From Methanosarcina sp. DH2 (GTDB lineage: Archaea > Halobacteriota > Methanosarcinia > Methanosarcinales > Methanosarcinaceae), in assembly GCF_020804225.1 (NCBI RefSeq), contig NZ_WJBI01000002.1:62001-126000 (forward strand): 64,000 nt of DNA. The letters run 5' to 3'. Under the pieces are notes generated by a model. It made no database searches. It worked only from the letters and a program-made list of their open reading frames with translations, and was not told the origin of the DNA. Both the position numbers and the translations under genes were made by a program. Shown here in pieces: positions 43,023-61,539 of the stretch (within the stretch, counting starts at the first letter, position 1; every line of letters begins with the position of its first letter).

Positions 43023-43067
43023 TGGGCCCGCTGAGATTCGAACTCAGGATCCCCGCCGTGTAAAGGC
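43023..43067. other. attL, 45-bp copy of the tRNA-Val 3' half
   Basis: Identical to 54890-54934, beginning TGGGCCCGCTGAGATTCGAA and ending GTGTAAAGGC. It covers the tRNA from the discriminator base through the anticodon loop and part of its stem. The rest of the tRNA is missing here. Confidence 0.95.
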
Positions 43068-43977
43068 TGTATTTGACAAATTCAACCTTATTAAACCTCT
43101 AATTGGAAATCAAATAAACCAATTAAATTGCGACCTAATAAGTACTCATTCCTTGATAACATACCCTCTACAAGAAAGCAAATGTAAAAGCTCTATACTC
43201 AATGATATCTGGTTCAAGCATAAAAATTCTTTTGAAGATTGGTTACACTATAAAAATATATCGCAAACTACTAAAAGAGACTATTTTAATGCCTTAATAA
43301 GATTCTTTGAAAATCAAATTATAAGCAAACCAATACAATTTAGAGATATTCTACTAAAAGACAAAGAAGAAAGAGGGTTACGCAATTTATTCAATTACTT
43401 TGAAGACAAAGAGATTGATGAAATATGCGGCTATAGCCTTGAGAAATGGAGACGCTTTGTAAAGATCAAAAAATCAGGTGTTGTTGAGGTCTACGTAAAT
43501 GAGGATGAAATCAAGAAAGGGTATGAAGAATGTCCCGAAGAAATGAAACCTGTATATAGTCTATTGGTTTATTCGGGAAACCGCTTAACTCATATCCATC
43601 GAATGCTTGAAAACTTCGACGAACGCAATATAGTTATTGAAGGTGAAGTTGCCCACTATCCAACTTCTTATTTATCAAGCGGTACAAAGAAGACATTTCA
43701 CCTATTTTTCCCTGCTTCATATATTCCTGAATTAAGGAAACTATGCAGGCTCAAGTCATATTGTAGCGTCATGAAAGAAATCAGAAGCGGACGTGTAACT
43801 GCAAAAACCATTCGAAAATGGCATTTAAACCTCATGATTAAGGAAGGGATTACAGAAAGCGTAGCTGATTTCATTCAAGGTAGGGCATCTGCAACCGTTG
43901 GAAGTGCACATTACCTCAATAAAGTGCAACAGGCGACAAATCAGTACCGTAGGCTTATCGGGAAACTCCCTATATAA
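43068..43977 (+). CDS. int: C-terminal part of split SSV-type tyrosine integrase, int(C)
   Basis: The frame is open from attL to a TAA-type stop at 43977 (about 302 codons after the crossover). The stand-alone start could be TTG at 43153, but on the excised circle it fuses to int(N). Catalytic pieces of a tyrosine recombinase are visible: R in YSGNRLTHIHRML, KWHLNLM (H-x-x-x position of the second His/Lys box), GRASATVGSAHYLNKVQQA with the nucleophile Tyr. DNA-binding SAM-like helices occupy the first ~90 residues (KNISQTTKRDYFNALIRFFE). Without int(N) it may be inactive or may serve excision. Confidence 0.9.
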
Positions 43978-44016
43978 TTTCAGTAAACAGAGCCTGTATA
44001 CCGTGATTCCAAAACC

Positions 44017-44132: not shown

Positions 44133-44177
44133 TATCAAAAACTTTAGAAGGTAAACTTAAGGATAAGTAAATCAAAT

Positions 44178-44414: not shown

Positions 44415-44690
44415 AATCGTTAGCAGAGAGCCACTTAATTAATTAATTTCGATTTTATTCTAATGCCCTTGGGATGCTTCACTTCCCAAATTTTCCGCTT
44501 GAGTACCTTATGTGCAACTGTGTAAACTCAAAATTTCACTATAAATCGAGCGTGCAAGGCCACCCTTTTTCCCTCCTCAGAGCCTTGATTTAATCTGTAC
44601 CTTTACGAACAGTATTTTAAAAAAGGATACAGCATCAATAAAACCTTAGATTATATTCTTATACTCAGAACTTATACAATTTATTTAATT

Positions 44691-45128
44691 ATGACTAAAA
44701 AAACGAAATGCACCCCTGAATTAATTGAACGAATGAAAGAAAATGTTAAGTTAGGTTTCACCTACTCAGCTCTGGCTTTATCTCTTGGAATATCAGAAGA
44801 TACCCTGTACTCATGGATAAGGAAAGGCAGGGATGAACAGCAACAGCCTTATGTAAGCTTTTACGCGGCACTCAAGGAAGCTGAAGCCGACCTTCTTGCA
44901 GAGTGCTTGCAACAGCTCAAACTCTCTATGAAAATGGGTAATGTAGAGTCAGCTAAATTCATGCTTGAGAGACGCTTTAATAATATGGGATATGGGAAGC
45001 AGTCACAGGTAGATGTAAAGTCCCAAAACCTGAATATGAACTCTACAGTACCCATGACACACGAACAAACAGAGGCAATGCGAGCCGACATATTAAGCAA
45101 GCTCACCCCGACGGATAGGATATTCTAA
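44691..45128 (+). CDS. HTH protein resembling phage terminase small subunits
   Basis: 145 aa. A homeodomain-like helix-turn-helix at residues 10-45 (LIERMKENVKLGFTYSALAL, SLGISEDTLYSWIRKGRDE) is followed by a helical oligomerisation region (AALKEAEADLLAECLQQLKL, FMLERRFNNMGYG). Such layouts occur in terminase small subunits, but no large terminase is present, so it is more likely an element regulator or replication factor binding repeats such as those at 44017-44132 (inference). Confidence 0.7.
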   Translation: MTKKTKCTPELIERMKENVKLGFTYSALALSLGISEDTLYSWIRKGRDEQQQPYVSFYAALKEAEADLLAECLQQLKLSMKMGNVESAKFMLERRFNNMGYGKQSQVDVKSQNLNMNSTVPMTHEQTEAMRADILSKLTPTDRIF

Positions 45129-45464
45129 ATCTTATCCACCAGCATAATAAAATCTCTTCATTCCCTCCCTTTTCTCCGGGCTGGAAATCCACCAGCTCAA
45201 CTTTTATAGATTATTAGTGTACATGTGAGTACATAAAAACGCCACCGTTTGACCTTTTACTCTCAAGACCTAACTATCCGGAAAGGCTCAATGTTACACA
45301 ACGGCAGGAAAGATTAAAAAAAAGTACATGCAACAGGCACGACAGCCACAAACATTATTTCTCTGTGGTAATAACAGTTTGAGAAAGAGAGGAAAGCCGG
45401 AACAAAAAACGGAAGGTTTAAAGAGCTTGTTCCCCTCCTCCATTTCATTAAAGGAGTAGGAAAA
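45129..45464. other. Intergenic region of the element
   Basis: Contains GGAAAGCCGGAACAAAAAACGG and an AAAGGAGTAGGAAAA ribosome site for the lipoprotein gene. No other feature is recognised. Confidence 0.35.
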
Positions 45465-46019
45465 ATGAATAAAGTTCAGAAAGCCATCTCAATTTTTCTT
45501 GTTGTTTTTACTGTAGTCTTTGTTGCTGGATGTTCTGGTCAATCATCCCCCCAAGAAAAGACGGCAGACAGCGCAGAGAACACAGGAGAACAAGCAGGGG
45601 AACAGCCTGACCAGTCTAAGGAGTGGATGGAGACCACAAGCGCAGACGCTTTAAATGTATCAACCTCAGCAAATGAGCTTGCATCCGTTCTGAGCAATTC
45701 CGGAGATCCAACCCAAATCAAAGCTCTGACGCAGTACATTGAGACGGAAGCGGACACTTCCAGCTACGACAGCGCGCAATATTATTATGATGATGATCTT
45801 GAGCCAGCCGTACAGAAATACGCGGATATGATGGGCTCTTATGGAGCTTTTGCAAAGCGGGTAGACATGTCTCTTGATCATATTAACGCCGGGGACACAG
45901 CATCAGCAGAAGTCACAATAGAAGACGCGGCAGAGTCTCTAACGAGAGGAAACACGTATTACGAAGAATACAAAACGATGACAGAAGACTTTAAGAAAAG
46001 CCACCCTGAGACAGCCTAA
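45465..46019 (+). CDS. Element-encoded surface lipoprotein
   Basis: 184 aa. Signal peptide with lipobox VAGC at Cys23 (FLVVFTVVFVAGCSGQ), a Gln/Glu-rich spacer, and a helical acidic domain (ASVLSNSGDPTQIKALTQYI, YYDDDLEPAVQKYADMMGSY). AAAGGAGTAGGAAAA precedes the ATG. It is probably anchored outside the membrane. On a mobile element it might act in exclusion or cell contact, but no family is recognised. Confidence 0.8.
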   Translation: MNKVQKAISIFLVVFTVVFVAGCSGQSSPQEKTADSAENTGEQAGEQPDQSKEWMETTSADALNVSTSANELASVLSNSGDPTQIKALTQYIETEADTSSYDSAQYYYDDDLEPAVQKYADMMGSYGAFAKRVDMSLDHINAGDTASAEVTIEDAAESLTRGNTYYEEYKTMTEDFKKSHPETA

Positions 46020-46673
46020 CAACTGTCTAAACTTTCCTATTTTTTGTTTGTAAATTTTGGTGGGAACTCACGCACTAAATATTTTCAGTTAGACCGGATT
46101 GGGTTTTCGTTATTAAACATAATAAAAGTATACACGATGTCCGGTATATAATATATAAAGCTTTGCCCCCATCCCAAAGTATATATACATTGAATTACAT
46201 ATATATAATAAAATAGGTATCGTAGTTTTTTCGAAAATTGCGGCATCTATGTATCAAGAAGAATGTCTCATTTTATACACGGATACTTTTTTAGACTTAT
46301 TAAAAATTGACTTATATTTTTGTTTGAATTGTAATAGTATCAGTAGTCAATACTATGAGCATATATCAGTATTGTTGAACGGAGGAACGTTAAGAAAGAT
46401 AAAGCTTAAACGAACGGTATACGTCAAAACATAAGTAACTTGGAAGTTATGTTTTCGAAGTTACTTAATGTCTTGTAGAATGAAAAAGGTATGTTTGTCG
46501 TTAATTCCAATTTGATTATATGAAATTATGTTAAACAATTATAGCTAACTATAACACTTATATTATTAATATTTAATTATAATTTAAATATATTGCGGAA
46601 TAAACGTCAGATGCTCCTTTGTGATTGAATGAATAGATAACTATGATCCGCAGTGATCAAAGGAGACAAATAG
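46020..46673. other. Very AT-rich gap in the element
   Basis: No convincing gene. A 61-codon plus frame (46249-46434) lacks a ribosome site. Several ATATATA tracts and ACTATAACACTTATATT-like runs occur. Confidence 0.35.
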
Positions 46674-46793
46674 ATGAAATCATTGACAAAAAATAATGTT
46701 GTGGTATTTCTTATGATATTCCTCATTGATATAATTATTAATTTGAATCAATGTTTTATTTTTTATATAAATAGTATTACAATAAATATGTAA
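46674..46793 (+). CDS. 39-residue membrane peptide
   Basis: ATG at 46674 preceded by AAAGGAGACAAATAG, a strong ribosome site. The product begins MKSLTKNNVVVFLMIFLIDI and is one or two hydrophobic segments ending INSITINM. No function can be assigned. The ribosome site is the main support. Confidence 0.45.
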   Translation: MKSLTKNNVVVFLMIFLIDIIINLNQCFIFYINSITINM

Positions 46794-46920
46794 GTTACCT
46801 AATTGTTATAGCTCATTCAAGAATTACATTGAATATTAATTTTCTTGAATGATTCTATTTTTTCGAGTAATTTTTATAATTCATTCATTTTCAACGATTT
46901 TTAACATTTGTATTAAATAA

Positions 46921-47298
46921 ATCCCGGATATATCCCATCATATCCCGGAACTCAGAGCAACTATTGAAGGACTGCAATTACTTCTCTCTGAAAAAGATCA
47001 GCGTATAGAAGACCTGAGAAGGGACAAAGAAACCCTTTCTATTTTTGCTCATTACTTCAAGAGCCTTGAATACAGGCGATTAGAGGAGAGTTCTGAAGCT
47101 GTTGTGCCGGATGTCAAGGAGCCTGTTAAGAGTTCAGCTAGGACAGCCAGGACAGCCAGGACAGCTCCAGCAGGAACGGAGATAATTAAGAAGATCTGCA
47201 AGAATTGCGGAGAAGAATTTGATACCCATAACCTCAAAAAAGAAACACGCCCCGATAAGTGCAGATCTGATTATTCACGAAAAAGAACAATAAATTAG
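46921..47298 (+). pseudogene. 5'-truncated coiled-coil/zinc-finger protein
   Basis: The protein-like frame runs from just after a TAA at 46918-46920 to 47298 but has no ATG, GTG or TTG before GTG 47104. The upstream part is clear coiled coil (LRATIEGLQLLLSEKDQRIE, DLRRDKETLSIFAHYFK); the downstream part has RTARTARTAPAG repeats and a Cys-rich end (ICKNCGEEFDTHNLKKETRP, DKCRSDYS). The 5' end is missing or shifted. A shorter product from GTG 47104 (64 aa) remains possible. Confidence 0.6.
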
Positions 47299-47300
47299 AA

Positions 47301-47582
47301 TTAATTTATTTTATGTTTAGTCAATATTCCCATAATAAAATCAAGTGCTTCATTTAAACTGAACATATCATTATCTGATATAAGTGATTCAGGAATCATA
47401 GCGCACTCGTCTTTATCAACATAGTCCGTTTTATTCAAATACCCCTCAGAATTACACACCGTCCAATTATTAACTCCGTGTGAATTATATTTTACGACAC
47501 TGAGTAATCCTTGGTCAGTTTCAAAATCCATTCGCACTACATTATTCAAAAGTTCTTTTAAAATTTCTGTTTCATTTTGCAT
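47301..47582 (-). CDS. Hypothetical small protein of the element
   Basis: 93 aa, acidic, no membrane segment. AAGGAGACAAGTAT precedes the ATG at 47582, a strong ribosome site. The sequence (MQNETEILKELLNNVVRMDF, LLSVVKYNSHGVNNWTVCNS) suggests a small alpha/beta protein. Its stop abuts, tail to tail, the truncated zinc-finger frame. Family unknown. Confidence 0.65.
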   Translation of the reverse strand: MQNETEILKELLNNVVRMDFETDQGLLSVVKYNSHGVNNWTVCNSEGYLNKTDYVDKDECAMIPESLISDNDMFSLNEALDFIMGILTKHKIN

Positions 47583-47670
47583 ATACTTGTCTCCTTACTG
47601 TCGCCTGAGACTCCCGATATTTAAAAACCATCGTGGAAGTTTTGGTAAATAACAAACAAAGGTGAAAACC

Positions 47671-48255
47671 ATGGTTCCAATACCAAAAAATCGACTCAAG
47701 CTCATATTTATATTAGGAACAATACTTTTAATATTTGTTATAATTATTAGAGTCCCAATAACACTTTTGACTTTAAATAATGGGAACTCAACCGAAGTAG
47801 CCGTGAATATTGCTGACACTGTTTCTCTTATAATAGCAATGGCGTCTTTCACCGTCTCTCTTATTGCAATGGTGCTGACATATAATTCCCTAGAAATTAC
47901 ACAAAATACACTAGAACGAACTGAAAAAGAACAACAAATAAGAGACATAGAACAGCGTCTCGAACTTTTCTATAACCCAATGTCCTCCTACTTTAAAATT
48001 TCAGTCGGTCGCGAAACGAAAAGAGGTATGAATGAAGACGACAGGCGAGAGCGTGTCCGAGCCTATCAACACAGATTCAAAGCAAATGACGAAACAAGAA
48101 AGCAATTTGAAGAATGGTATAGGCATATAACTGGAAGAGCAACGACTGGGAAAGCAGGCGTTCAACAGAAGCTAATTGAATACATAGAGGAAGATATCAA
48201 AAAGCATAACAACCGAATTCAAGACCTTAATAAACAAATTCAAGAACTCTCATGA
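47671..48255 (+). CDS. Membrane protein with two helices and coiled-coil cytoplasmic tail
   Basis: 194 aa from ATG 47671, with AGGTGAAAACC just before it. Two membrane helices (LIFILGTILLIFVIIIRVPI and AVNIADTVSLIIAMASFTVS) are followed by a long helical tail with EQRLELFYNPMSSYFKISV and a C-terminal coiled coil (LIEYIEEDIKKHNNRIQDL). The NPMSSYF-type pattern after two helices occurs in phage and plasmid proteins of unknown role. A 20-codon frame overlaps its stop (ATGA) but ends in TAG at 48314. Confidence 0.7.
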   Translation: MVPIPKNRLKLIFILGTILLIFVIIIRVPITLLTLNNGNSTEVAVNIADTVSLIIAMASFTVSLIAMVLTYNSLEITQNTLERTEKEQQIRDIEQRLELFYNPMSSYFKISVGRETKRGMNEDDRRERVRAYQHRFKANDETRKQFEEWYRHITGRATTGKAGVQQKLIEYIEEDIKKHNNRIQDLNKQIQELS

Positions 48256-48397
48256 ATGACAACATAACTGAAATGCCAGTAGCAAAAGCCCAGGTAGAAG
48301 TTATGGTAATTTAGGGAAATATGAGGCTTTATAAAAAAAAGATTGAATTTATATACTCCCGTTGCTTTTTCTAAACTGTTGTTATAGAGAGTCCTGA

Positions 48398-48653
48398 ATG
48401 TCTCATTGTATAGGATGTCGAATAAACACGAACGATATCAAAAGACATCAAAAAAGAGACCGAAAGAAGCACATGGAGACGTTATAAGCAGAAAGCTAGA
48501 GACGCATGTAAGCTTCGAAGTAAAAAAAGCCTTAAAACTTCGGAGTGTGAAATTACGAAAGTAGAATTTGAACCGAAAGAGCTGATAGAGTTCTTGAAGG
48601 AGCTAGTAGAACTCTTTACGGTTATAATCATTCTCGTAAGAATGATAATGTGA
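48398..48653 (+). pseudogene. Small frameshifted ORF with Cys pair
   Basis: ATG 48398 opens MSHCIGCRINTNDIKRHQK; the +1 frame, which has no start codon of its own, continues ETERSTWRRYKQKARDACKL to ITKVEFEPKELIEFLKELVE and a hydrophobic end at 48653. The two overlap at a run of six A residues near 48450. A single-base indel or a +1 slip would give about 84 residues. Either the gene is broken or expression needs frameshifting. Confidence 0.4.
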
Positions 48654-48749
48654 TTACAAAAAGGGCTCTCCTGACAACACATTTTATAACCGTCTCAGAT
48701 ACAAAAAAAGCTTAAATTTTCGCATCGAAAAGCAATAGGAAGCGTTAAA

Positions 48750-48974
48750 GTGTCATGTTTTTGTTACAAAAAACCAACCCATCCAGTTGGGAAAATGGTA
48801 GATGGTAAGCTGGTAATAACACAACCAGAAGAACTCGAATACCGTTGTACAGCTTTTAACTTAGAATACTATCCAGAAGAACAAGAGAAAATAGAACTAT
48901 GTAAGAGCAACGATTTCGAAAAATGCAAACGCTATATAAAACGACAATCGGGGAAAGCTATAAAAGAAAAATGA
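48750..48974 (+). CDS. Small Cys-rich protein of the element
   Basis: 74 aa with Cys3, Cys5, Cys33, Cys51 and Cys58 (MSCFCYKK, EYRCTAFNLEYY, ELCKSNDFEKCKRYIK). It may bind metal. The C-terminus is basic. A weak GGAAGCG lies before the ATG. It is hypothetical, but codon use and amino-acid composition are protein-like. Confidence 0.55.
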   Translation: MSCFCYKKPTHPVGKMVDGKLVITQPEELEYRCTAFNLEYYPEEQEKIELCKSNDFEKCKRYIKRQSGKAIKEK

Positions 48975-49050
48975 CAACATTATTATATTAAAAATAATAA
49001 ACTTTCTTCGTTCAAAATCCAAAAGTAAAAGATATACATAAAAATTTTGT

Positions 49051-49374
49051 TTAAATTTTTTCTAATATCCAAACTCCTTTTTGAGTAAGCATTATTTCTT
49101 TTTCACCCCAATGCGATATTTCACACTTCACTAGCCCCTTCTTGCTTAAACTCGATATTACACCTGATATTTGATTTTTTTTGGTCATTTTGCAGTTCTT
49201 AGTAACATTGGACATCATTACTCTTTGATCGTAGAATAAAGGCTCAAGTTCTCTGAAAACACGTAATATATCAATTCTTTTATAATATTTGCCAAAAATT
49301 GAAACCATTGGTTTGCATATTCCATAAATTAAAACGTCCTCTTCTAAGTCCGTAATTCCGTCTAAGGTTGTCAT
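49051..49374 (-). CDS. Winged-helix DNA-binding protein of the element
   Basis: 107 aa. The core is a wHTH: RIDILRVFRELEPLFYDQRV, NQISGVISSLSKKGLVKCEI and the wing ISHWGEKEIMLTQKGVWIL. It is likely a regulator of element genes. Tandem small promoter-like elements lie to its right (ACTTTAAAGT at 49401). It is the only regulator-like gene on the minus strand of the element. Confidence 0.8.
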   Translation of the reverse strand: MTTLDGITDLEEDVLIYGICKPMVSIFGKYYKRIDILRVFRELEPLFYDQRVMMSNVTKNCKMTKKNQISGVISSLSKKGLVKCEISHWGEKEIMLTQKGVWILEKI

Positions 49375-50114
49375 ACTCCACCAGCAACACTAACTGTACA
49401 ACTTTAAAGTTGTAAATCAATATATATACTCATCTATTTCGTGAGGTAACTAATAACATATATTTATCGCTTGCCAGCTATCTTTATTCACATCATATTA
49501 TATTTAGTAATATAAGCAATTTTGAAAATAATACCAAGTAAATCTTATTTCACAGAAGTTTCCTTACCCTGCCTCAACAGATGTTTTATTAGCCAGTTTC
49601 CTATGTACACACTATATGATTTTTATAGAGATGTCCACGTTATGCTTTTGTGAGCTCAATTATTCCATAGTATACAGGAATGTATAATATCCCTTCGATT
49701 TGGCCAAACGGTAGAGCAAAATCACTCAAAAAATACACATAGGACGAATAGAAAACAGATAGCTGGAGACACGATTTAACCGTATTTGTTTTCGTTCTGA
49801 CTTACTAAAAAGCTTACAAGAAGTGAGCTAAAAATCAGCCTTTTATTCAGGACAGACTGAAGAACGAAATGACAGACAATTAATATTAATGTCCTGTCTA
49901 AAAATCGAATCCTTCCTTATCCGGTTAAGTCAATTATCCAAAAGTACAAGATTTCTGTCCTATTCGGGAAAATCACAATCGGGAATTATCCAAAATCAAA
50001 TTACTTTGTAACTTTGGAACTTTCAAAAGAGTTGATCATGCAGAGAGGACGGGGGAAATCTCCAATCAAAACAGTACACAGTTTTTAAGACAGTTCACTC
50101 TATTTTCTGAAGCT

Positions 50115-50139
50115 ATAGATAGATAGATAGATAGATAGA
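50115..50139. repeat. GATA tetranucleotide microsatellite
   Basis: Six perfect copies of AGAT/GATA in a row. It is noncoding. Confidence 0.9.
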
Positions 50140-50316
50140 TTTTGATAGATATGTCATATATACATATGGTATATTTGCAATTATATACCGTCTTTAGACC
50201 TTTTTTGGAAGGAAATATACTTGTCATTTTTAAGGCGATTAGAGGCTCATGTCCTAGAGCCTGAGTAATTAGTCCTGTCCTCAAGATATTCAATCAAATC
50301 TGATGGGTTTGCAACG

Positions 50317-50347
50317 CCCTGCGGGCTATAACGCACAGCCTGTAGGG
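50317..50347. other. Hairpin shared in inverted orientation with 54409-54441
   Basis: It begins CCCTGCGG and ends CCTGTAGGG, which pair over about 8 bp including G-U pairs, with AACGCACA in the loop. The minus strand at 54409-54441 has the same CCCTGCGG, AACGCACA and AGGG blocks. The pair brackets the zinc-ribbon and helicase-primase genes. Confidence 0.6.
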
Positions 50348-50688
50348 AGGGGAAGTTCTTACAGGCCTTCATGCAGGAAGCAACTGCGTACCAGGACGAC
50401 AATAAAGACAAAAAACAGCAGTACCGATAAGAGAAAAGCAGAGCGGGAACAGCTTTTTTTGCTTTTTTGGACTCTTTAAGCTTAGATAGCAATGGGGAAA
50501 TCTTAAAAACGCTATCAGGCAATTTTTAGAAAGGTTAGAAAATAAAAGCTCAAAAGATATGTATCAGGTTAAATGAAACGCTTTTTAGGTTCTGTTAAGG
50601 AAAAGAAGAATTCTAAACCCTGCGATTAAATAGAATACATTGTGTATGACGAAAGGGAGAATAATAAGGAGACTGTTAACTGTTTTTA

Positions 50689-50727
50689 CTCCTGCCAAGC
50701 TAAAAAGCACAGCAGGAGCAGTTTTTT
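50689..50727 (+). terminator. Terminator-like hairpin without an upstream gene
   Basis: Stem CTCCTGC / GCAGGAG (7 bp, loop about 16 nt) is followed by CAGTTTTTTAAC. The nearest plus-strand gene ends 1.7 kb upstream, so it may end an unannotated RNA. Confidence 0.4.
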
Positions 50728-51007
50728 AACGCTGGTTGCTTTTTTATTCTGTTATCAAAACAGAAGTGCAATGATAAGTAAATAGTTTACTAAGTAATTC
50801 AACTTCCATCTATTTAAATTGAATTATTCATAAGGTCACGGCATGTATATTATGAGAATTCTATTTTTTAATGTCCAACTGTCTAAAAGGATGTAAAACA
50901 AAATTTACATTTTGTTAGAAATACATAACATTGCTATACACGCGCAGAGTATTAAATTCTTCCAAAAGAGCGTATACTTTTTATGCCCTGAACATTTAAT
51001 TAGTTTG

Positions 51008-51220
51008 ATGACTGAAGACAGAACTCCAGTAATGAAAAAATGTTTACACTGTGGTTACTCTTGGCCGCAGAGGTTCGCAAACAGAACGCCGAAGACTTGC
51101 CCGAACTGCCATAATTACAACTATGACCAGCCCCGGAAGAAAGCACCACATATAAGACCAAACAGAAGAATTAAAAGAAGTCAAGAAGTAACGATTATTA
51201 CTAAAAGTAATATTTTATAA
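51008..51220 (+). CDS. Zinc-ribbon protein upstream of the helicase-primase
   Basis: About 70 aa from an ATG at 51008 (MTEDRTPVMKKCLHCGYSWP); a frame open to 50912 adds an unlikely hydrophobic leader. CLHC and CPNC pairs, 17-18 residues apart, form a rubredoxin-like zinc ribbon; the rest is basic (KKAPHIRPNRRIKRSQ), suggesting nucleic-acid binding. It precedes the replication gene in the same direction by about 220 bp. Confidence 0.7.
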   Translation: MTEDRTPVMKKCLHCGYSWPQRFANRTPKTCPNCHNYNYDQPRKKAPHIRPNRRIKRSQEVTIITKSNIL

Positions 51221-51442
51221 CGAAGACATAACTGAGAGTAACAAAAGAAAAAGAAAAGAAAACAAAGGCAGAAGACAGTTTTATAGTTTGGCGACCCTAA
51301 AACTGCTTCCTGCTGACTGACTCAATAGTAAGAGTAAGTTAAAAACCATCTCACAATGAAATATTTATTACTCTATTCTATATAGTCTTTTCGCTGTTGG
51401 TGGAGAGCCTTCTGTCTTTGTTTTCGGGAAAAAAAGATAAGA

Positions 51443-54367
51443 ATGAAGAGATTAAGTGAAAGAAAACCAACACAGAAACCTATAGAAGGCTGTCCCCGGA
51501 AGAGTCAGGACAGGAGAACGGTTTCAGCTTGGGAAATATACGAGATGTTCCAACAGGGACACATAGAGGTATATAAAACTACAAGGGCAGGCGCGACCAC
51601 TTCCTTAAATGCAGAGTCAGGAAACAGGAAAGAACGGTTTACTTGTATAGTACCTACTAACAAAATTGCAGATGAGACGATTGTAAGGGACTCTATAAAC
51701 TTCTGTGAGAAGCCGGGACTCGATGTTATACACGTAAAATCTAACATGAACTGTATTAAGAATCAGGAACTATGCGAGGAATACCCCGACCTTAAGGAAC
51801 TTCAATACCTGCCACTTGCTGACAAGTGCGAGGACTGCGAACATTACGACACCTGCCCGATTACAGCCCCACTAAGAAGACCTAACGCGGACGGTTTTGT
51901 ATTGACTTATGCGAAGGTCGCCGCCTTACAGCTTGCAGTTATGTTCAGGGAAGGGACAACGGCAGAGAAGATATTAAACAGTATCGCGGGAAGCCGGAAT
52001 ATTATTCTCGATGAAGTCCACGAACTCCAATACGGAAGACAACAGGAATACATAGTCTATGATAGTAAAAACGGATACAGGACAGACTTTAATAAATATA
52101 GCTCTGCCTGTCAGGACTTCGAATATATCAAGAACGTTATAGAGCAAATGAAAGCAATAGCAGAGGACGACACTTTTAAGATAAAAGTTCATGAAGTCCT
52201 CGGAGGCGCGGAGAGTCCGAAATACTGGAATCACCGCCTTAGCCTTGATTATCAGAATCCAGCTTTCACAGGACAGGAGAGAGACGCAAGAGGAAAGGAA
52301 ACAGCAGGCTTTATTAAAGAACTGATCGAGCTTACGAAGCACAGAGAGGACTATAATCTAAGTATGGAGGAAGTTAAAGCCCTTCTCCAATTTAACGCAA
52401 TCGGGAAAAGCTTTAAGCTGTCTATCAATGCTATCAAAGATAGAGGGATTATTCAGATAAAAGTATCCGCTCTCGATTTCTTGTATGCGGACACTATAAG
52501 AAAATTTACTATGAGCATGCAGGGAGAAGGCAGGCGAATAATATTAACTACTGCCACTTTTTGCAGTAAGGACTATTCAGACTTTTTTAGGGGGAAGGTT
52601 TCACCCCTTAAAACAACATTCGGGCAACATGGCGACCCCACAAACAACAACGAGAAAATGTTAATTCTTGCAGATAACAAGAAATACAACGCCATAGGCG
52701 ACAGGTCACGCTATAAGATGCGCCCGGAGATTATCAGCCGATGTATTGATATTCTGGAATCCTACGAGGAAGAGGAAGTACTTATAATTGCACTTAGCAA
52801 GGAGGAAGCCCGGAGTATAGAGAGGGGACTTAAGCAGGCAGGAAGACCCCACCCTGTAATTTATTATAAAGGCTCGGAAACTATCGGCGTTACCTCGGAA
52901 GCCCGAATAATGATTGCTATAGGAATAGCAAACAAACCCTTAAACGCCTTCGACTCAATCACCGAAACAGTAGAAGAGTCTAAAAAACTTTTATACGAGT
53001 CGGTACACTGCGACACATGGCAGGCTTGGAGCAGAGTGAAAGACCCAAACGGAAAGAACCCCTCTGTAGTATTCGCCCTTGGATGCTGTATAGACGATGT
53101 AAGAGCCTGTGTTAAGTGGGGATTTAACAGGCAGATAACCGGGATAGAGGAACACCGGAACGGATGCAGGAACAAATTAACCATAGAATATGAAGGTTCA
53201 GGAATTACTCAACCAAAAATAATTCACTGCAAAAACTTTGAAGAGATGCTTACACATGCTGGAAATCATAGACAACTGTCTAAAAAAGTCTTTCTAAATT
53301 CAAAGAACCGTCTATGTAATATTATAGACGGTTTTTCCGATTTTGAGAGCAAAGTTTACACAGTTAACGAGGAATTCCTTAAATTAATCATTAACAGGGA
53401 AGATCTTTATAAACTTTATAACCCTGTAACAACTCGATATTTTGATGTAAAAAAGAGCATTTCCAGCAAAGACATTAAAGACCACCTTTCCGGGAAAATG
53501 ACTATAGGAGGCTACCAGATCGACAACAAGACCAATCTTGTAAAATGGTTATGTTTCGATGTGGATGCACACCCTAAGCCGGAAGCAACAAAGGAAGAGA
53601 TAAAAGCCTGTATAGAGGAAGCAGAGAAGCAGAAAGGACAGCTTGAGGAATTCCTGAATAAGTTGAACATTCCTTTTGTTCTGGAACTTTCAGGAAGGGA
53701 ACACTCTTACCACTTCTGGATATTCCTTAAGCCGGTTGATGCGTCTGCCGCTTATGCTTTTGGCAGGGACATTATAAGGGAATTGGGATATAAACCGAAC
53801 ACAGATATAGAGGTATTCCCGAAGCAGGAGCACATAAACCCGGACGAGTTCGGGAACTTTGTTAAGCTTCCCCTCGGAATCAAAAGCGGGCAGAAATCAA
53901 AGATAATGCAGGAAGGAAAGTTTCTTCGGAAGATTTCAAACCTTGAGATAAAATTCATTGATATTTCAGGTTACAAGGCTTATGTAGACGAAGCAAAGAA
54001 AGCCCGGAAGAAAGCCGCCAGAACCACAGAGAATCCCTCAGTAAGCACCGTAAGCATAGGAGAGTACAAGGTTAAGCCCTGCGTTTTAACAGCTTCTAAG
54101 ATGCTGTTACACGGTAAGGGAGATGCAGGAAACTTCACCCGCTTATTCATAGCAAGGGAGCTAATAAGCGCAGGGATGCAACCCGGAGATATCTGCAAGT
54201 TCTTTGAAACTCAGCCGGACTATAACAAAGAAAAAACCCTGTACCACATCGGGCAGATAATGAAAAAGGATTATCCCCCTATACCCTGCCACACTGTTTA
54301 TGAGAAGGTTAACAACTTTATAGGCTGTGAGGACTGCCCGAACTTCTGGAAGTGTGGAGTTTATTGA
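51443..54367 (+). CDS. Helicase-primase fusion: XPD-like SF2 helicase, AEP primase, PriL-like Fe-S domain
   Basis: 974 aa. Residues 40-560: helicase region with P-loop-like TTRAGATTSL (46-55), Cys cluster C111-x17-C129-x2-C132-x5-C138 in the XPD/DinG Fe-S position, DEVH box (190-193) and LTTATF (motif III, 369-373). Residues 655-845: archaeo-eukaryotic primase with metal-binding D706-V-D708, S750...H757-F-W-I-F and VKLPLG (807-812). Residues 879-974 match the PriL C-terminal Fe-S domain (PCVLTASKMLLHG, NFTRLFIARELISAGM, CHTVY, GCEDC, C971). It is the likely replication initiator of the element. The helicase assignment is weaker than the primase assignment. Confidence 0.85.
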   Translation: MKRLSERKPTQKPIEGCPRKSQDRRTVSAWEIYEMFQQGHIEVYKTTRAGATTSLNAESGNRKERFTCIVPTNKIADETIVRDSINFCEKPGLDVIHVKSNMNCIKNQELCEEYPDLKELQYLPLADKCEDCEHYDTCPITAPLRRPNADGFVLTYAKVAALQLAVMFREGTTAEKILNSIAGSRNIILDEVHELQYGRQQEYIVYDSKNGYRTDFNKYSSACQDFEYIKNVIEQMKAIAEDDTFKIKVHEVLGGAESPKYWNHRLSLDYQNPAFTGQERDARGKETAGFIKELIELTKHREDYNLSMEEVKALLQFNAIGKSFKLSINAIKDRGIIQIKVSALDFLYADTIRKFTMSMQGEGRRIILTTATFCSKDYSDFFRGKVSPLKTTFGQHGDPTNNNEKMLILADNKKYNAIGDRSRYKMRPEIISRCIDILESYEEEEVLIIALSKEEARSIERGLKQAGRPHPVIYYKGSETIGVTSEARIMIAIGIANKPLNAFDSITETVEESKKLLYESVHCDTWQAWSRVKDPNGKNPSVVFALGCCIDDVRACVKWGFNRQITGIEEHRNGCRNKLTIEYEGSGITQPKIIHCKNFEEMLTHAGNHRQLSKKVFLNSKNRLCNIIDGFSDFESKVYTVNEEFLKLIINREDLYKLYNPVTTRYFDVKKSISSKDIKDHLSGKMTIGGYQIDNKTNLVKWLCFDVDAHPKPEATKEEIKACIEEAEKQKGQLEEFLNKLNIPFVLELSGREHSYHFWIFLKPVDASAAYAFGRDIIRELGYKPNTDIEVFPKQEHINPDEFGNFVKLPLGIKSGQKSKIMQEGKFLRKISNLEIKFIDISGYKAYVDEAKKARKKAARTTENPSVSTVSIGEYKVKPCVLTASKMLLHGKGDAGNFTRLFIARELISAGMQPGDICKFFETQPDYNKEKTLYHIGQIMKKDYPPIPCHTVYEKVNNFIGCEDCPNFWKCGVY

Positions 54368-54408
54368 CTCCCTCTTCCCGGCACTTATCCGACACTTTCC
54401 AGTCCTTA

Positions 54409-54441
54409 CCCTGTAGGTTGTGCGTTGGAGTGACCGCAGGG
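54409..54441. other. Inverted copy of the 50317 hairpin motif
   Basis: The minus strand reads CCCTGCGGTCACTCC then AACGCACAACCT and ACAGGG. It shares about 23 positions with the copy at 50317-50347. It lies just after the helicase-primase stop. Confidence 0.55.
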
Positions 54442-54596
54442 AACGGGTGTCTGACCATACAGATTGATACTTAACTATCAATAGTCTCGGTTGTTAAAAA
54501 TTAGTTTTTCACCTCCAAATTCTAATCATATATCAAAAAATGCAAAGTTACATAAATATTTAGTAACCTTTTGTTTGATATTATAGAGGTGGAAGA

Positions 54597-54944
54597 ATGA
54601 AGCTTTTAGGTAAGTCCAAAGTTATGAAACATAGGGTTAAACCAGAGATTACATATCCTTTAGTAAGGCTCCCACAATCTGAAATAAACCTTGCCGGAGA
54701 AACAGCTTATGTTTTCAAAACGGAATTAAACGGTAAGTCTGTTTATGTGATTTCTTTGGATGAAGAGCTGAACTGTGAACTTAAAGTTACACAATCAGAA
54801 GTGAAATCTGACCTTGAAGCAAGAATAGAAGCTTTAGAAAAGGAGGTCTATAAAACCTCTAAATCAGAAAACAAGGAAGAAACAGAAAGTGGGCCCGCTG
54901 AGATTCGAACTCAGGATCCCCGCCGTGTAAAGGCGATGTCATGA
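54597..54944 (+). CDS. int: N-terminal part of split integrase, int(N), reading into tRNA-Val
   Basis: 115 codons from an ATG preceded by GAGGTGGAAGA. The N-terminus (ITYPLVRLPQSEINLAGETA, YVFKTELNGKSVYVISLDEE) and a coiled coil (LEARIEALEKEVYKTSKSEN) are followed by SGPAEIRTQDPRRVKA, which is the antisense translation of the tRNA-Val 3' half. After 112 codons the frame leaves att; on the excised circle codon 113 joins int(C). Reassembled length is about 415 aa. In the integrated state the product ends after the tRNA overlap. Confidence 0.9.
   Translation: MKLLGKSKVMKHRVKPEITYPLVRLPQSEINLAGETAYVFKTELNGKSVYVISLDEELNCELKVTQSEVKSDLEARIEALEKEVYKTSKSENKEETESGPAEIRTQDPRRVKAMS
54890..54934. other. 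attR, 45-bp att copy within tRNA-Val
   Basis: Identical to 43023-43067. It includes the discriminator base, acceptor 3' strand, T arm, variable loop and anticodon loop of the tRNA. The intact tRNA is restored at this end. Confidence 0.95.
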
Positions 54945-54963
54945 CCGACTAGACCACGAGCCC
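54890..54963 (-). tRNA. tRNA-Val (UAC), integration target
   Basis: Minus strand: acceptor GGGCUCG/CGGGCCC with A73, D arm with AGUCGGUCA, anticodon stem UCGCC/GGCGG and loop UUUACAC (anticodon UAC), T arm CUGAG-UUCGAAU-CUCAG. CCA is not encoded. The gene is intact although its 3' half is the att site. Confidence 0.95.
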
Positions 54964-56868: not shown

Positions 56869-57441
56869 TCATTTACAGCTAATTAGCTTCCCTGTTGAAG
56901 ATTCAGGGATAAGTTTGCATATTATATCATATAGTCCAATAAGGTCACCTGAATGGAGATACAATTCTTCGTCGTTTACCAGGGTCAGGCGAAGTTCATC
57001 CCGTTCTTCGTCCTGGTAGATTCCTTTGCCGATATCAAGCATCCGAATTGCGGTAAGTGGAATTTCAAATAAAATTATATTAAAAGCTTTATTCCATCCG
57101 AAGATTCTGCGGTTGGTTACATAAGTAAAACAGTATTTCCAGATAGGATGAGATTGCTGGAAGTAAGAGCCATAGAATTGGAACTCGATATCTTCATTTT
57201 CCTGGAGGAGAGGCCCGGTTTTCCGGTGTTCGAGCTGCCAGGCTCTGGTATTTTTGTCAAGTTCTTCAAAAAGCCCGTATTCAAGCATGGTCTCAATGGA
57301 TGCAATCGCAGCTCCAAGTTTTACTCCAATGAGAGGAATTCCTGCAACTGAAATTATAACATCTGCATTAATAAGCACTCCCTTTGTAACCAATCGGTTG
57401 AGCAGTTCTCCAAGACTATCTTTTTCGCGTTCAGGTTTCAT
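56869..57441 (-). CDS. GvpA-family protein (GvpJ/M-like) fused to a PH-like domain
   Basis: 190 aa from ATG 57441, which overlaps the gvpL stop (ATGAAACCTGA). Residues 1-60 are GvpA-fold: LGELLNRLVTKGVLINADVI, ISVAGIPLIGVKLGAAIASI, ETMLEYGL. After a linker, residues about 95-180 resemble a bacterial PH domain (YVTNRRIFGWNKAFNIILFE, IPLTAIRMLDIGKG, LRLTLVNDEELYLHSGD). GvpJ/M proteins are minor, essential nucleation components, usually about 80-110 aa. The added domain is unusual and may bind membrane or other Gvp proteins (inference). Confidence 0.8.
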   Translation of the reverse strand: MKPEREKDSLGELLNRLVTKGVLINADVIISVAGIPLIGVKLGAAIASIETMLEYGLFEELDKNTRAWQLEHRKTGPLLQENEDIEFQFYGSYFQQSHPIWKYCFTYVTNRRIFGWNKAFNIILFEIPLTAIRMLDIGKGIYQDEERDELRLTLVNDEELYLHSGDLIGLYDIICKLIPESSTGKLISCK

Positions 57442-58231
57442 CCTCAATATTCCCCTTGAGATCAACAAAACTGAAAGGTGCCCATGGCCCTGTAAATCTT
57501 ACTGCAAATCCTTCTCTTCTGTTTATTTTCTCAAGGCTTTGCCCAAGTCTTTCGATGTTGTCGTGGATAACAAGGCAGGAAAATGCAACCATAAGTTTTT
57601 TGCCCGTGTATTTCTCAGGTATATAGGGAATTTTCTCCTCAATTTTCAATTGTGTTACATTTTCTCTTATTAATTTCCCAAATTCTTCTCCCAGACTTAC
57701 CAGATGATCATTTACTGCCTGTTTCAAGCTGAGCTCGAATTTTTTTTTGAAAATGTAAGCTTTTCCCTTTGACATGCCTTCTATTTTATTGTTTATCTCT
57801 TCAAGTTCGGGAATTGCCTCTATTACCTGTTTTTCCAGAATTTTCGAATCGTAAAAAATCTGTACAGAATATTCTGCAGAGTTTTTTAACCTGTCAAGTT
57901 CTCTTTTATAGGAGCCATAATCCTTTTGAAGCCAGTTTCTTATGGCTTCGTCATCCCCTCTGGCGAGGCATCCGAAAGAAAACGGCAATACGGTGTTAAA
58001 GTACTCAGTTGCTTTATCAATTACGTAGTTATGGTTCAGAATCCACTGATGAGCCTGTTCTTCATTCTGTGCAGGCTCGGGTTCAGGTTTAGAAGCATGT
58101 ACGACAGCTGCAATATCCTGGAAAACAATAGTGTATACAGGCCTATCGCCAATGCCAATGTCTCCCAGGTTTATTTCTTCTTCAGTGTTAGCTATCAAGT
58201 AAAGATATCTCCCCTGGTCGGTTTCGGTCAT
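57431..58231 (-). CDS. gvpL: Gas vesicle protein GvpL (GvpF/L family)
   Basis: 266 aa. GvpF/L features: an N-terminal RYLYLIANTEEEINLGDIG domain, VLPFSFGCLARGDDEAIRNW, a long helical region and C-terminal GFAVRFTGPWAPFSFVDL. GvpF and GvpL coat or chaperone GvpA during assembly. Its start overlaps the 3' end of gvpK by 44 bp and its end overlaps the next gene by 11 bp, so translation is coupled. AGGTAGAGGAGC precedes the ATG. Confidence 0.93.
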   Translation of the reverse strand: MTETDQGRYLYLIANTEEEINLGDIGIGDRPVYTIVFQDIAAVVHASKPEPEPAQNEEQAHQWILNHNYVIDKATEYFNTVLPFSFGCLARGDDEAIRNWLQKDYGSYKRELDRLKNSAEYSVQIFYDSKILEKQVIEAIPELEEINNKIEGMSKGKAYIFKKKFELSLKQAVNDHLVSLGEEFGKLIRENVTQLKIEEKIPYIPEKYTGKKLMVAFSCLVIHDNIERLGQSLEKINRREGFAVRFTGPWAPFSFVDLKGNIEDET

Positions 58232-58544
58232 GCTCCTCTACCTCTTTAGCCCATCTTACAGGATTTATTAATTTATCTACTACATCATCTACGACCTCAT
58301 CCAGTCCACACCGTACGGATTCAACGGTATCTTCGAGATTATTGTCAGCCTTTATGATTTCAAGTGCTTCGTTCAAATCTGCAAGTGCTTCTCCAAGTCT
58401 CTCGATCTCTTCATCACTGAGACTATCTTTTTCGATCCTCAGGAGAGCCTGCTTTTCAAGTAACTCGGTTATTATTTCAACAAGAGCTACAACAAGACCC
58501 AGTACGCCTTTTTTCAGATTTTTTTCATCAATCTTAAGCGGCAT
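58188..58544 (-). CDS. gvpK: Gas vesicle protein GvpK
   Basis: 118 aa, full length. NLKKGVLGLVVALVEIITEL, LLEKQALLRIEKDSLSDEEI and RLGEALADLNEALEII are conserved GvpK helices; the C-terminus has VDKLINPVRWA. GvpK is essential for vesicle formation in haloarchaea. GGAGAGGAAATTCC precedes the ATG. It lies between gvpH and gvpL in the same operon. Confidence 0.95.
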   Translation of the reverse strand: MPLKIDEKNLKKGVLGLVVALVEIITELLEKQALLRIEKDSLSDEEIERLGEALADLNEALEIIKADNNLEDTVESVRCGLDEVVDDVVDKLINPVRWAKEVEEHDRNRPGEISLLDS

Positions 58545-58569
58545 GGAATTTCCTCTCCTTTCATCGATC

Positions 58570-59241
58570 TTAATCGATTTTTTCTCTTCGTTTTATTTTC
58601 AGCTGCAGTACACCGTTGCTAAAACTTTTCTCTTTAATCGCTTCTGCTTCCGAAGGTAAAGTTATGATTTTCCTGTACATCCCTGCAGAAATATTCAGTT
58701 TGCTGCCTTCAAGTTCTATCTGGATATCTTCCTCATTGGCGTCCGGAATCTCAGCAATTACAAAAATATGGTCCTCTTCTCCGAAAACATCAAAAACAGG
58801 TTCAATTCTGGTAGATTCGATTTTTACTTCTTCGATTCTCTTTTTATGGACCATCCCTGTCGAAGTTTTCGCAGGCTTTGTGTTAAGTGGCCTTATAGAG
58901 AATCCATAGTTTACAACAGGCTTTTTATCGCTCCAGCCGGTCTCAAGCCTGTGTTTTATTTCCGAATCAGTTTCGGCAATTCTTTGTCTAAACTCAGGAG
59001 AAGTTTTTTCAAGAGTTTTTACTATTTTTCCGAAGCCTGGAATAAGGGAACCTACAAGATCTCCCACAAAACTTTCTTCACGATATTCGGATTCCCTTTT
59101 TTCTCCAAGACCTTTCTCAAGTTCCTTTATTCTTTTTTCCATGGCTTTCATTTTGGATTCTAATTCTTCTCTGGACTCTAACTTCTCTTTTTCTTCTTGA
59201 GATTCACCTTCATATTTTCTTTCTGCCGTATCCTTTTCCAT
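58570..59241 (-). CDS. gvpH: Gas vesicle protein GvpH with Hsp20-like domain
   Basis: 223 aa from ATG 59241, chosen for AGGGGCTAAA just before it. The first half is a charged coiled coil (EKLESREELESKMKAMEKRI) followed by VGSLIPGFGKIVKTLEK and VVNYGFSIRPL. The second half is an alpha-crystallin-like domain: DVFGEEDHIFVIAEIPDANE, IQIELEGSKLNISAG and SFSNGVLQLKIKRRE. In haloarchaea GvpH stabilises GvpC and modulates assembly; here gvpC is not seen. Confidence 0.92.
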   Translation of the reverse strand: MEKDTAERKYEGESQEEKEKLESREELESKMKAMEKRIKELEKGLGEKRESEYREESFVGDLVGSLIPGFGKIVKTLEKTSPEFRQRIAETDSEIKHRLETGWSDKKPVVNYGFSIRPLNTKPAKTSTGMVHKKRIEEVKIESTRIEPVFDVFGEEDHIFVIAEIPDANEEDIQIELEGSKLNISAGMYRKIITLPSEAEAIKEKSFSNGVLQLKIKRREKID

Positions 59242-59395
59242 TTTAGCCCCTTTAATCCAATTTTGCATTTTAAACCCGATAATGTAAACCTTTAAACCTT
59301 ATATGCAGGTTCAATGCTCTAAATCAGGCACTATCGCCTTGATATCGAGCCATGATAAGTAAATGCAATGCACTGATAACTTAATCCGATGACAT

Positions 59396-59764
59396 TCATC
59401 TGGGAGGTTTTATTTCGACTTCAGAGAGTCTTTTATTCTTAAACGGGCTTTCCCATCCGCATATCGGGCATCCCTCTTCTATCAAAAGCTTTTCTTCTCG
59501 TCGGTTTCCGCATTCAGGGCAGTTTGCATACGTTTCAAAACTTTTCTCCCAGACCGGAGCATTGAGATTGGTTCCTGAAGGGAATTCAAGCCCGTACTTT
59601 GCCGCAGTTTCAAAGGATGCAATAGTAGCTGTGATTTTAACTCCAAGGAGCTCCGTACCTCCGACAGATACAGAGATATCGGCATTAAGTACAAGCCCTT
59701 TATCGAGAATTCTATCTATTACGTCAACAAGTCCCCCCGACTCCTTGACAACCGAACCACTCAT
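59396..59764 (-). CDS. GvpA-family protein with C-terminal zinc ribbon, copy 2
   Basis: 122 aa. Residues 10-60 have the GvpA fold (LVDVIDRILDKGLVLNADIS, VSVGGTELLGVKITATIASF). The C-terminus carries CPECG and CPICG pairs, then GWESPFKNKRLSEVEIKPPR. It is almost identical to the upstream copy, with a longer tail and Y instead of H/I before CPECG. GGTGAAATA precedes the ATG. It probably serves as GvpJ or GvpM; the zinc ribbon is an addition to the usual form. Confidence 0.88.
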   Translation of the reverse strand: MSGSVVKESGGLVDVIDRILDKGLVLNADISVSVGGTELLGVKITATIASFETAAKYGLEFPSGTNLNAPVWEKSFETYANCPECGNRREEKLLIEEGCPICGWESPFKNKRLSEVEIKPPR

Positions 59765-59798
59765 TATTTCACCTTTTTATCAGTTCCAATCCGAATTT

Positions 59799-60137
59799 TT
59801 AGAGGTTCTTTTTAAGCGGACTTTCCCATCCGCAGATTGGGCATCCCTGTGCCAGCAGTATTTTTTCTTCTCGTCGATTTCCGCATTCCGGGCAGTTTAT
59901 ATGTGTTTCAAAACTTTTCTCCCAGGCCGGAGCATTGAGATTGGTTCCTGAAGGGAATTCAAGCCCGTACTTTGCCGCAGTTTCAAAGGATGCAATAGTA
60001 GCTGTGATTTTAACTCCAAGGAGCTCCGTACCTCCGACAGATACAGAGATATCGGCATTAAGTACAAGCCCTTTATCGAGAATTCTATCTATTACGTCAA
60101 CAAGCCCCCCCGACTCCTTGACAACCGAACCATTCAT
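59799..60137 (-). CDS. GvpA-family protein with C-terminal zinc ribbon, copy 1
   Basis: 112 aa. GvpA core as in copy 2, then a ribbon with CPECG and CPICG separated by NRREEKILLAQG. GGTGAAATA precedes the ATG. The pair arises from a tandem duplication of about 370 bp that includes the intergenic ribosome site. Divergence is concentrated in the last 20 residues, so one copy may be specialising. Confidence 0.88.
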   Translation of the reverse strand: MNGSVVKESGGLVDVIDRILDKGLVLNADISVSVGGTELLGVKITATIASFETAAKYGLEFPSGTNLNAPAWEKSFETHINCPECGNRREEKILLAQGCPICGWESPLKKNL

Positions 60138-60348
60138 TATTTCACCGTTTATTCACCTGTTTATTTATCTGTTTATTTATCTGTTTATTAATTCATTTTT
60201 AGCTCCTGTAGAACTTCCAGATCCAGATATATGAAACCGGAATTAATGATGTACCGGCATTATTCTCAGTTATTTTTAGAATATATTTACTGTGGGCTGC
60301 AAGTGGTTCCCTGGGGATCCTTGAAGGATGTAATAGATTTTTATGTAT
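60138..60348. other. Operon-internal gap with TTTATTTATCTG repeat
   Basis: A direct repeat of TGTTTATTTATC (three copies, 60152-60190) lies just before the GvpA/zinc-ribbon pair. No gene is present. A secondary promoter may be here. Confidence 0.45.
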
Positions 60349-60624
60349 TTAGCCCTCCTCAGCCTCTGACTTCCTGGATACACGTTTTCCGGGCTTTTCT
60401 GCTTTTCTTTCAGAATCATTAACCCTGACATTGTAAGAATATTCGATTTTAGAGCCAACCGGTCCCTTGCAGATATTTCTTCCTGATTTCTCGGATATTT
60501 TTTTTGTTTCCATCTCTTCAAGCAATCTGAAGAAGTCCATCATCTTCCAGCAGGATTCTCTGGATTCCGAGTTCCGATCTTTTGTATGTCTTTTCTTCTC
60601 AGGCAAGGATGTCGCTTCTGACAC
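60349..60624 (-). CDS. Short GvpH-like protein without Hsp20 domain
   Basis: 91 aa from a GTG at 60624, inside the end of gvpG, with AGGAG 10 nt upstream. WKMMDFFRLLEEMETKKISE, KSGRNICKGPVGSKIEYSYN and VRV resemble the N-terminal region of GvpH proteins (D-F-x-x-L-L-E, S-G-R, YxYxVR). The Hsp20 half is missing. It is translationally coupled to gvpG. The family assignment is tentative. Confidence 0.6.
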   Translation of the reverse strand: MSEATSLPEKKRHTKDRNSESRESCWKMMDFFRLLEEMETKKISEKSGRNICKGPVGSKIEYSYNVRVNDSERKAEKPGKRVSRKSEAEEG

Positions 60625-60880
60625 TGAGGTTCATCTCCTCAAAACGCTCTGCAAATTTCAGTTGCTCCATGAGCCTGGACTTTGTTTCTTCAAATTCTTC
60701 CCTGGGAACCTCACCAAACTCATATAACATTTGATTTTCCTTTATCTCGTTTTTGACTTTTTCAGGGTTGTACAGTTCTTTATACGCAAGGTTTTTTATG
60801 ATTTCTAGCGTGTAAATTAAATCAAGTCCGGGAATTGAGATTCCCAGCGCCCGGAGAATAAGATCGTCAAGGAGGAACAT
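60599..60880 (-). CDS. gvpG: Gas vesicle protein GvpG
   Basis: 93 aa. FLLDDLILRALGISIPGLDL, YTLEIIKNLAYKELYNPEKV and FGEVPREEFEETKSRLMEQL are standard GvpG. Its ATG overlaps the gvpF stop (TAATG), and GGAGG lies inside gvpF. GvpG is a small helical minor assembly component in the same block as GvpF. Confidence 0.93.
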   Translation of the reverse strand: MFLLDDLILRALGISIPGLDLIYTLEIIKNLAYKELYNPEKVKNEIKENQMLYEFGEVPREEFEETKSRLMEQLKFAERFEEMNLSVRSDILA

Positions 60881-61539
60881 TACCTGAAGCCTCCCCTCTG
60901 TTTGGATAATATATGTATATCTACGAAATTGTAAGGTGACCAGGGTCCACTATACTGGATCTTAAATGAATCATACTTGGTTTCTAGCCTTTCAATTTCA
61001 TCTGAAAAAGCCTCTATCTTATCTTTTTCCACAAGAAATGAAGTGTTCATTATAAGGCGCTTGCTGAAAAGGCTCATGTCTTTGGAATCAAAAGCTATCT
61101 GCTTAAGATCTGTTAAAAACTCGGATTTGCACTGTTCTGCTTTTTGCAAGTCCCCATCAAAATCTTGTGGCAAAATCACCTTTACTCCGAGTTCGACCCT
61201 GTTATCCACGATTTTTATGGATTTTCTCATAGCCTTGTAACCGGACCTCATAGAGATGTCTACCAGTTTTTTGTTTTTGAAGATCATGCCATATGCCACA
61301 GGGATGACACTGTGCCTTTTCATTACCTCATTAACCACGTAAGTATGAGTCTTTACTTCCTCCTCATTTTCAAGCTCGTACTTTTTAAAAGGCACATCAC
61401 TTACAACAGGAGAGAATTCCTTATATTTGATAGTGTATACCTCTTTTCCCTGAAAGCCTATGTTTCCGAAACTATCCTGTTCCTCCTGGGCCTTAATTAT
61501 GCAGTAGACATATTTCCCGTTTCCATTGTCTTTGTTCAC
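60880..61539 (-). CDS. gvpF: Gas vesicle protein GvpF
   Basis: 219 aa from a GTG at 61539, preceded by AGGGGGATACAGG. N-terminal GKYVYCIIKAQEEQDSFGNI, VIPVAYGMIFKNKKLVDISM and C-terminal KIQYSGPWSPYNFVDI define GvpF/L. It is the shorter of the two GvpF/L proteins here and sits before gvpG, as in haloarchaeal clusters. GvpF contacts GvpA and starts assembly. Confidence 0.94.
   Translation of the reverse strand: MNKDNGNGKYVYCIIKAQEEQDSFGNIGFQGKEVYTIKYKEFSPVVSDVPFKKYELENEEEVKTHTYVVNEVMKRHSVIPVAYGMIFKNKKLVDISMRSGYKAMRKSIKIVDNRVELGVKVILPQDFDGDLQKAEQCKSEFLTDLKQIAFDSKDMSLFSKRLIMNTSFLVEKDKIEAFSDEIERLETKYDSFKIQYSGPWSPYNFVDIHILSKQRGGFR

Follow-up and report, generated by a model that had tools for sequence, protein, structure and literature searches.

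A Methanosarcina integrative element encodes one polypeptide with SF2 helicase-like, AEP primase and PriL-CTD-like modules

The Thermococcus plasmid pTN2 encodes PolpTN2, in which PriS and PriL are fused and which makes primers for PolB (PMC3973330). An archaeo-eukaryotic primase (AEP) domain, a PriL-related domain and a helicase within one polypeptide is likewise an already known plan, and PriCT domains are related to PriL-CTD (PMC5862659). CRISPR-associated Prim-Pols (CAPP), finally, include helicase-fused and RT-fused members (PMC8211822).

We compared with these systems a gene in the window, by which we mean the whole 64,000-nucleotide stretch of Methanosarcina DNA that was analysed. An open reading frame at 51443-54367 (+), running from an ATG start through a stop and present as a single copy in its own genome, encodes a 974-aa protein in which an SF2 helicase-like, an AEP and a PriL-CTD-like module follow one another in one chain. 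Its features are as follows.

51443..54367, + strand: three-module protein, probable replication protein, 974 aa (intact ORF, full-length relatives)
51500..53317, + strand: residues 20-625, SF2 helicase-like domain with motifs laid out as in XPD/DinG (hhalign, motif spacing, Foldseek on a low-confidence model)
51575..51601, + strand: Walker A-like loop KTTRAGATT (residues 45-53), without the Walker A lysine (alignment)
51752..51856, + strand: candidate Fe-S ligands C104/C129/C132/C138, four cysteines that lie between motifs Ia and II (conservation)
52010..52021, + strand: motif II, DEVH (residues 190-193; alignment)
52547..52561, + strand: motif III, TTATF (residues 369-373; alignment)
53021..53047, + strand: motif VI-like block, QAWSRVKDP (residues 527-535; alignment)
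53360..53962, + strand: AEP domain, residues 640-840, active site D706/D708, H757 and E790 (Pfam, PDB match, model)
54065..54364, + strand: PriL-CTD-like domain, residues 875-974, Cys 880/949/962/965/971 (NCBIfam, hhalign)

Like PolpTN2, the 974-aa protein belongs to a small archaeal element and pairs a PriS-like AEP with a PriL-like region bearing predicted Fe-S cysteines; unlike it, the protein has a helicase-like domain in the same chain, where pTN2 has a separate, adjacent SF1 gene, and it retains the motif II histidine (H757) that the AEP of PolpTN2 lacks, the PriL-like region of the latter being the larger (PMC3973330). pRN1 ORF904 and other AEP-PriCT-helicase proteins similarly combine an AEP, a PriL-related helical domain and a helicase on an archaeal mobile element, but the ORF904 type has PriCT-1 and a C-terminal SF3 helicase (PMC5862659, PMC4158269), whereas the 974-aa protein opens with an SF2, XPD/DinG-like domain and has a PriL-CTD with cysteines. 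Helicase fusions of CAPP, too, are reported to run from AEP to helicase (PMC8211822), while the 974-aa protein places the helicase-like domain first and the PriL-CTD last. A search of the open-access literature, which covers few subscription papers, found no description of a helicase-AEP-PriL-CTD fusion. What appears to be undescribed is the union in the same chain of a leading helicase-like domain, an XPD/DinG-like Fe-S-type layout, a P-loop without its lysine, and a PriL-CTD.

An initial annotation of this DNA had proposed three modules in a single polypeptide, a reading now borne out for each module by its own line of evidence. Of the two outcomes named beforehand as fatal to it, a C-terminal segment unlike PriL-CTD and an N-terminal part unlike SF2 helicases, neither was observed. 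The motifs that it quoted are all present at the positions it gave them (KTTRAGATT, 45-53; DEVH, 190-193; CFDVDAH, 704-710; the primase motif II string SGREHSYHFWIF, 750-761; VKPCVL, 877-882; IPCHTVY, 947-953; GCEDC, 961-965), and because these positions are conserved family-wide, the pattern is not due to chance. Its description of a self-contained replication initiator says more than the evidence shows: neither a processive polymerase nor an origin-binding domain was recognised in the 974-aa protein, and the AEP, PriL-related and helicase plan was, as noted above, already on record.

The AEP module, residues 640-850, is identified by structure as well as by profile: Pfam AEP-TOTE matches residues 672-819 (E 1.3e-22), AlphaFold is confident over the domain (pLDDT about 87), and the nearest solved structure is a CAPP of Marinitoga (E 3e-19, phmmer against the PDB). 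Identity with CAPP_A (PMC8211822; PDB 7nqd, 7nqf, 7p9j) is 27-28% over the AEP domain, and superposition on 7p9j by VIA-align gives Z 21.5 and rmsd 2.8 over 206 residues; among the VIA-align matches listed, all fall in the AEP range save one SF2 entry (7enn, Z 6.7). The active site is complete in motifs I (FDVD, D706/D708), II (S-x-H, H757) and III (E790). DxD, sxH, the acidic motif III and the AEP fold that mark the superfamily (CAPP_A/AEP-TOTE type) are all present, and every three-module member covering the domain keeps all of the catalytic residues.

This closeness to CAPP, the AEP-TOTE label, and matches to the PADLOC PrimPol and type IV DinG models (the latter weak, E 0.0036) are what would recommend a role in defence or CRISPR adaptation in place of replication. 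We consider such a role very improbable: unlike CAPP proper, the gene has no CRISPR locus near it, with no CRISPR-like array in 30-64 kb and none of the element ORFs that were searched recognised as a cas gene; no defence partner is prominent in the element, where there are weak matches alone; relatives in proviruses and viral contigs adjoin terminase genes, and in G155, G120 and L079, a viral contig, they immediately precede TerS/TerL; and mobile elements are already known to carry CAPP relatives that lie outside CRISPR loci (PMC8211822). Separately, in other genomes of the order a reverse transcriptase is fused to an AEP in proteins of about 915 aa (L024-L028), which resemble CAPP-RT or DRT UG10 proteins.

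PriL-CTD assists initiation in the cellular primase. The C-terminal segment of the 974-aa protein (residues 875-970) matches this domain by two routes: NCBIfam PriL models match residues 845-952 (E 1e-4), and hhalign aligned the family C-terminal domain with a profile built from nine cellular PriL proteins of relatives (E 2.4e-12, probability 98%), the same profile giving zero match to the AEP and helicase parts of the family. The helical core and the PPC, PPxC and C motifs are those of archaeal PriL-CTD, with C880, C949 and C962 occupying three of the four ligand positions. Unlike archaeal PriL-CTD, the domain lacks the third cysteine (GNC) and has a CxxC (962/965) instead, and C-terminal cysteine ligands are lost in the viral relatives L083 and L086. 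An Fe-S cluster in this domain is therefore plausible but not a constant of the family, which tempers the earlier suggestion of two Fe-S clusters: both are plausible in the 974-aa protein, while some relatives have lost the C-terminal ligands.

For the N-terminal part, earlier read as an XPD-like helicase, the match to SF2 helicases was confirmed and the family name was not. The family profile aligns with a mixed SF2 protein set over motifs I to II (hhalign, E 3e-7) and with DEAD_2/XPD proteins alone in a weak local match from motif III to IV (E 0.023); because the mixed set matched better, kinship with XPD rests on layout and not on profile score. Motifs II and III are separated by 179 residues (176-227 in the family), compared with 175-226 in DEAD_2-type proteins (n = 20) and 24-48 in other SF2 proteins (n = 16), an Arch-sized insertion as in XPD/DinG. 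C104, C129, C132 and C138, kept in all complete family members, lie between motifs Ia and II, a placement that the initial annotation had likened to that in XPD/DinG, and these cysteines are candidate Fe-S ligands. Motif II (DExH, here DEVH), motif III ([ST]AT, here TTAT) and motif VI (Q..xR, here QAWSRVKD) are present and conserved. Pfam DEAD_2 has zero matches in the 974-aa protein at E up to 1, nor does any other Pfam helicase model match, and the protein departs from XPD/DinG further in being fused to a primase. AlphaFold models of the helicase region are poor (pLDDT mostly 30-70), and folding it alone, with 4 sequences, gave a worse result (pLDDT 42) than the full-length model, so the fold is assigned on the basis of motifs, spacing and profiles; with the full-length model, whose helicase part is of low confidence, Foldseek returned DinG (6fwr, E 2.5e-4, prob 0.95) and CasDinG, XPD being far weaker.

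For the P-loop-like motif noticed at the outset, the alignment stands but the key residue is absent: KTTRAGATT aligns with GxGKT, but the loop reads RAGATT where Walker A has GxGK[ST], the catalytic lysine being replaced by alanine. Every relative covering the region has Ala, Cys, Gly, Phe or Met at this position, while the loop glycine, the loop threonine and an upstream lysine (K45) are invariant or nearly so. Since both the Walker A and the Pfam tests failed, we do not class the protein in the XPD family, and judged from its sequence the helicase-like domain is not a standard member of it.

With the motif I lysine missing throughout the family, the domain could well differ from ordinary ATPases. 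One reading of the substitution, which is possible though we think it doubtful, is that the domain is a pseudo-helicase without ATP hydrolysis that binds DNA or docks a real helicase such as MCM, making the protein a primase with a targeting module. The conserved phosphate-loop Gly and Thr, K45, DExH, motif III and motif VI Arg speak against this, as continued selection for nucleotide binding or hydrolysis would be expected to preserve them, and a related clade with a dead AEP (see below) retains all of the conserved helicase residues. The opposite and equally tentative proposal is that the family represents a new type of helicase-primase. Its iron-sulphur SF2 motor would work without the phosphate-loop lysine, for which K45 or R48 would substitute, and the covalent link of this motor to an AEP and to a PriL-type Fe-S domain would let one molecule both unwind and prime. 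ATP hydrolysis and DNA unwinding by the lysine-less domain are predictions.

Of 186 genomes of the order, 9 encode the three-module protein in full or in part: the window's own genome, G155, G120, G107, G124 and G115, together with broken or truncated copies in G177, G131 and G117. The copy in G177 (L038 8215-12137) is split after about residue 240 by an insertion of roughly 1 kb, which carries an opposite-strand ORF of 320 aa. Further relatives reside in the viral contigs L079, L083 and L084/L086; L084 and L086 are the ends of a single 52,295-bp contig, which is thus probably circular. Helicase-bearing relatives were few in scans of viral contigs. The named phage collection gave no match to the 974-aa protein, and the sole match in the plasmid collection was an AEP at 27% identity. 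Outside the order, G445, from another order of the class, has two copies with an active AEP and the C-terminal domain. The family alignment omits row L035, a wrong ORF.

A sister group (G098, G094, G136, G143, a second locus in G115, and G090) keeps the helicase-like domain and lacks both the AEP catalytic residues (FDxD has become FE, and SxH has become YR/K/LR) and the PriL-like domain. Because the distant G445 members have both, loss in the sister group, whether in one event or in several, is the simpler reading, and the joint loss of primase active site and PriL-like domain suggests that the two are functionally coupled. The AEP plus PriL-CTD type unit is joined to D5/SF3 helicases in other contigs, which makes the helicase an exchangeable part.

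The gene lies within an element integrated in a tRNA-Val gene, whose features are listed here.

43023..43067, + strand: 45-bp att copy with the same sequence as the 3' part of the tRNA-Val gene
43068..43977, + strand: IntC half of a suicidal (SSV-type) integrase (PF16795, E 7.6e-38, reading joined across the att core)
44691..45128, + strand: terminase small subunit-like (TerS-like) protein, 145 aa (phrog_4102, E 5.8e-14)
45465..46019, + strand: putative lipoprotein, 184 aa, conserved in elements of G158, G177 and G164
47662..48255, + strand: predicted membrane protein, 197 aa
49051..49374, - strand: winged-helix-like regulator, 107 aa (weak matches)
50912..51220, + strand: zinc-ribbon/treble-clef protein, 102 aa (DUF4379, E 3e-5)
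54597..54944, + strand: integrase half IntN, which extends into the tRNA gene
54889..54963, - strand: tRNA-Val (TAC), integration target
54890-54934, within the tRNA-Val gene: second att copy

The excised circle would be 11,867 bp. In the circular form the integrase frame reads across the att core, from IntN at 54597-54944 through IntC to 43977, and suicidal SSV-type integrases are defined by an attP inside the integrase gene, which is split on integration (PMC8371274); with its PF16795 match and attP within the gene, the element's integrase is by sequence of this type. Consistent with the mapped boundaries are G171, G155 and G149, where the left flank directly abuts an uninterrupted tRNA-Val gene. 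Besides the 974-aa protein gene, no other replication gene was recognised among the element's ORFs, and a search for an origin and iterons gave weak repeats and no clear origin. A related element in G158 has the integrase, TerS-like gene and lipoprotein in common and a DUF927 protein in place of the 974-aa gene, the pattern expected of replication-module exchange; G161 and G141 have elements whose integrases are related and whose gene content includes Prim-Pol/D5 and NrS-1-type polymerase genes.

That the element is a decayed tailed-provirus remnant, and the protein a leftover under little selection, seems unlikely to us. In favour, no TerL or capsid gene was found beside the TerS-like gene in the element (the TerL family tested, phrog_979, is absent from the source genome), coding density is low, the integrase is split, and a decayed older integration is adjacent. 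The 974-aa frame is nevertheless intact and retains every AEP active-site residue, and the same int/TerS/lipoprotein set in G158 shows that a small element of such make-up recurs. The element itself may be defective, being integrated, with a split integrase and much AT-rich, apparently non-coding DNA.

Several further observations concern the element and its surroundings. The older integration is at 41246-41674, where an integrase fragment comes after a copy of the tRNA-Val 3' half, both of them decayed; it left this remnant in tandem with the present element. A 1.9-kb block at 45411-47307, part of which is AT-rich (about 26% GC) and which appears not to encode protein, recurs with 94% identity at L122 5488-7384 in a second element, the integrases of the two elements being 77% and their TerS-like genes 79% identical; the block reflects either recent exchange or a conserved functional region, for example an origin. 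The gene set of 43023-54934 (integrase, primase-helicase and TerS, without TerL or capsid) resembles that of phage satellites, and the element is possibly a satellite of an archaeal virus. G166, of the same genus, has 31 matches to the TerS-like protein, far above any other genome. Beyond the element, 56869-62456 holds a gas vesicle-like cluster (GvpF/L-like and GvpA-like, named by eye from sequence) with two nearly identical tandem GvpA-like genes at 59396-59764 and 59799-60137 (-).

We favour, as the likely explanation, that the 974-aa protein is the replication protein of a Methanosarcina-type integrative element, plasmid-like or a tailed-virus relic or satellite, combining unwinding and priming with extension by the host. 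The three domains share one chain with an intact primase site, they are conserved across the family, and the genes sit in integrated elements and viral contigs. By analogy with PolpTN2 of pTN2 (PMC3973330) and with pRN1-type helicase-primases (PMC5862659), the protein probably starts and primes replication of the circle. The element would excise as a circular 11.87-kb DNA, which the N-terminal XPD/DinG-like SF2 domain would open and along which it would translocate; the AEP domain would lay primers with help from the PriL-CTD-like domain, and host polymerases would extend them. Replication of the element through this protein, and its choice of origin, are what we would predict.

The pTN2 primase holds a PriL part, and the helicase of that element is a separate gene of open role (PMC3973330). 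With helicase-like, primase and PriL-type parts in one chain, their cooperation could be studied on one purified protein. The family also has an unusual and testable feature in its SF2 domain, which consistently lacks the Walker A lysine while its motifs are otherwise complete.
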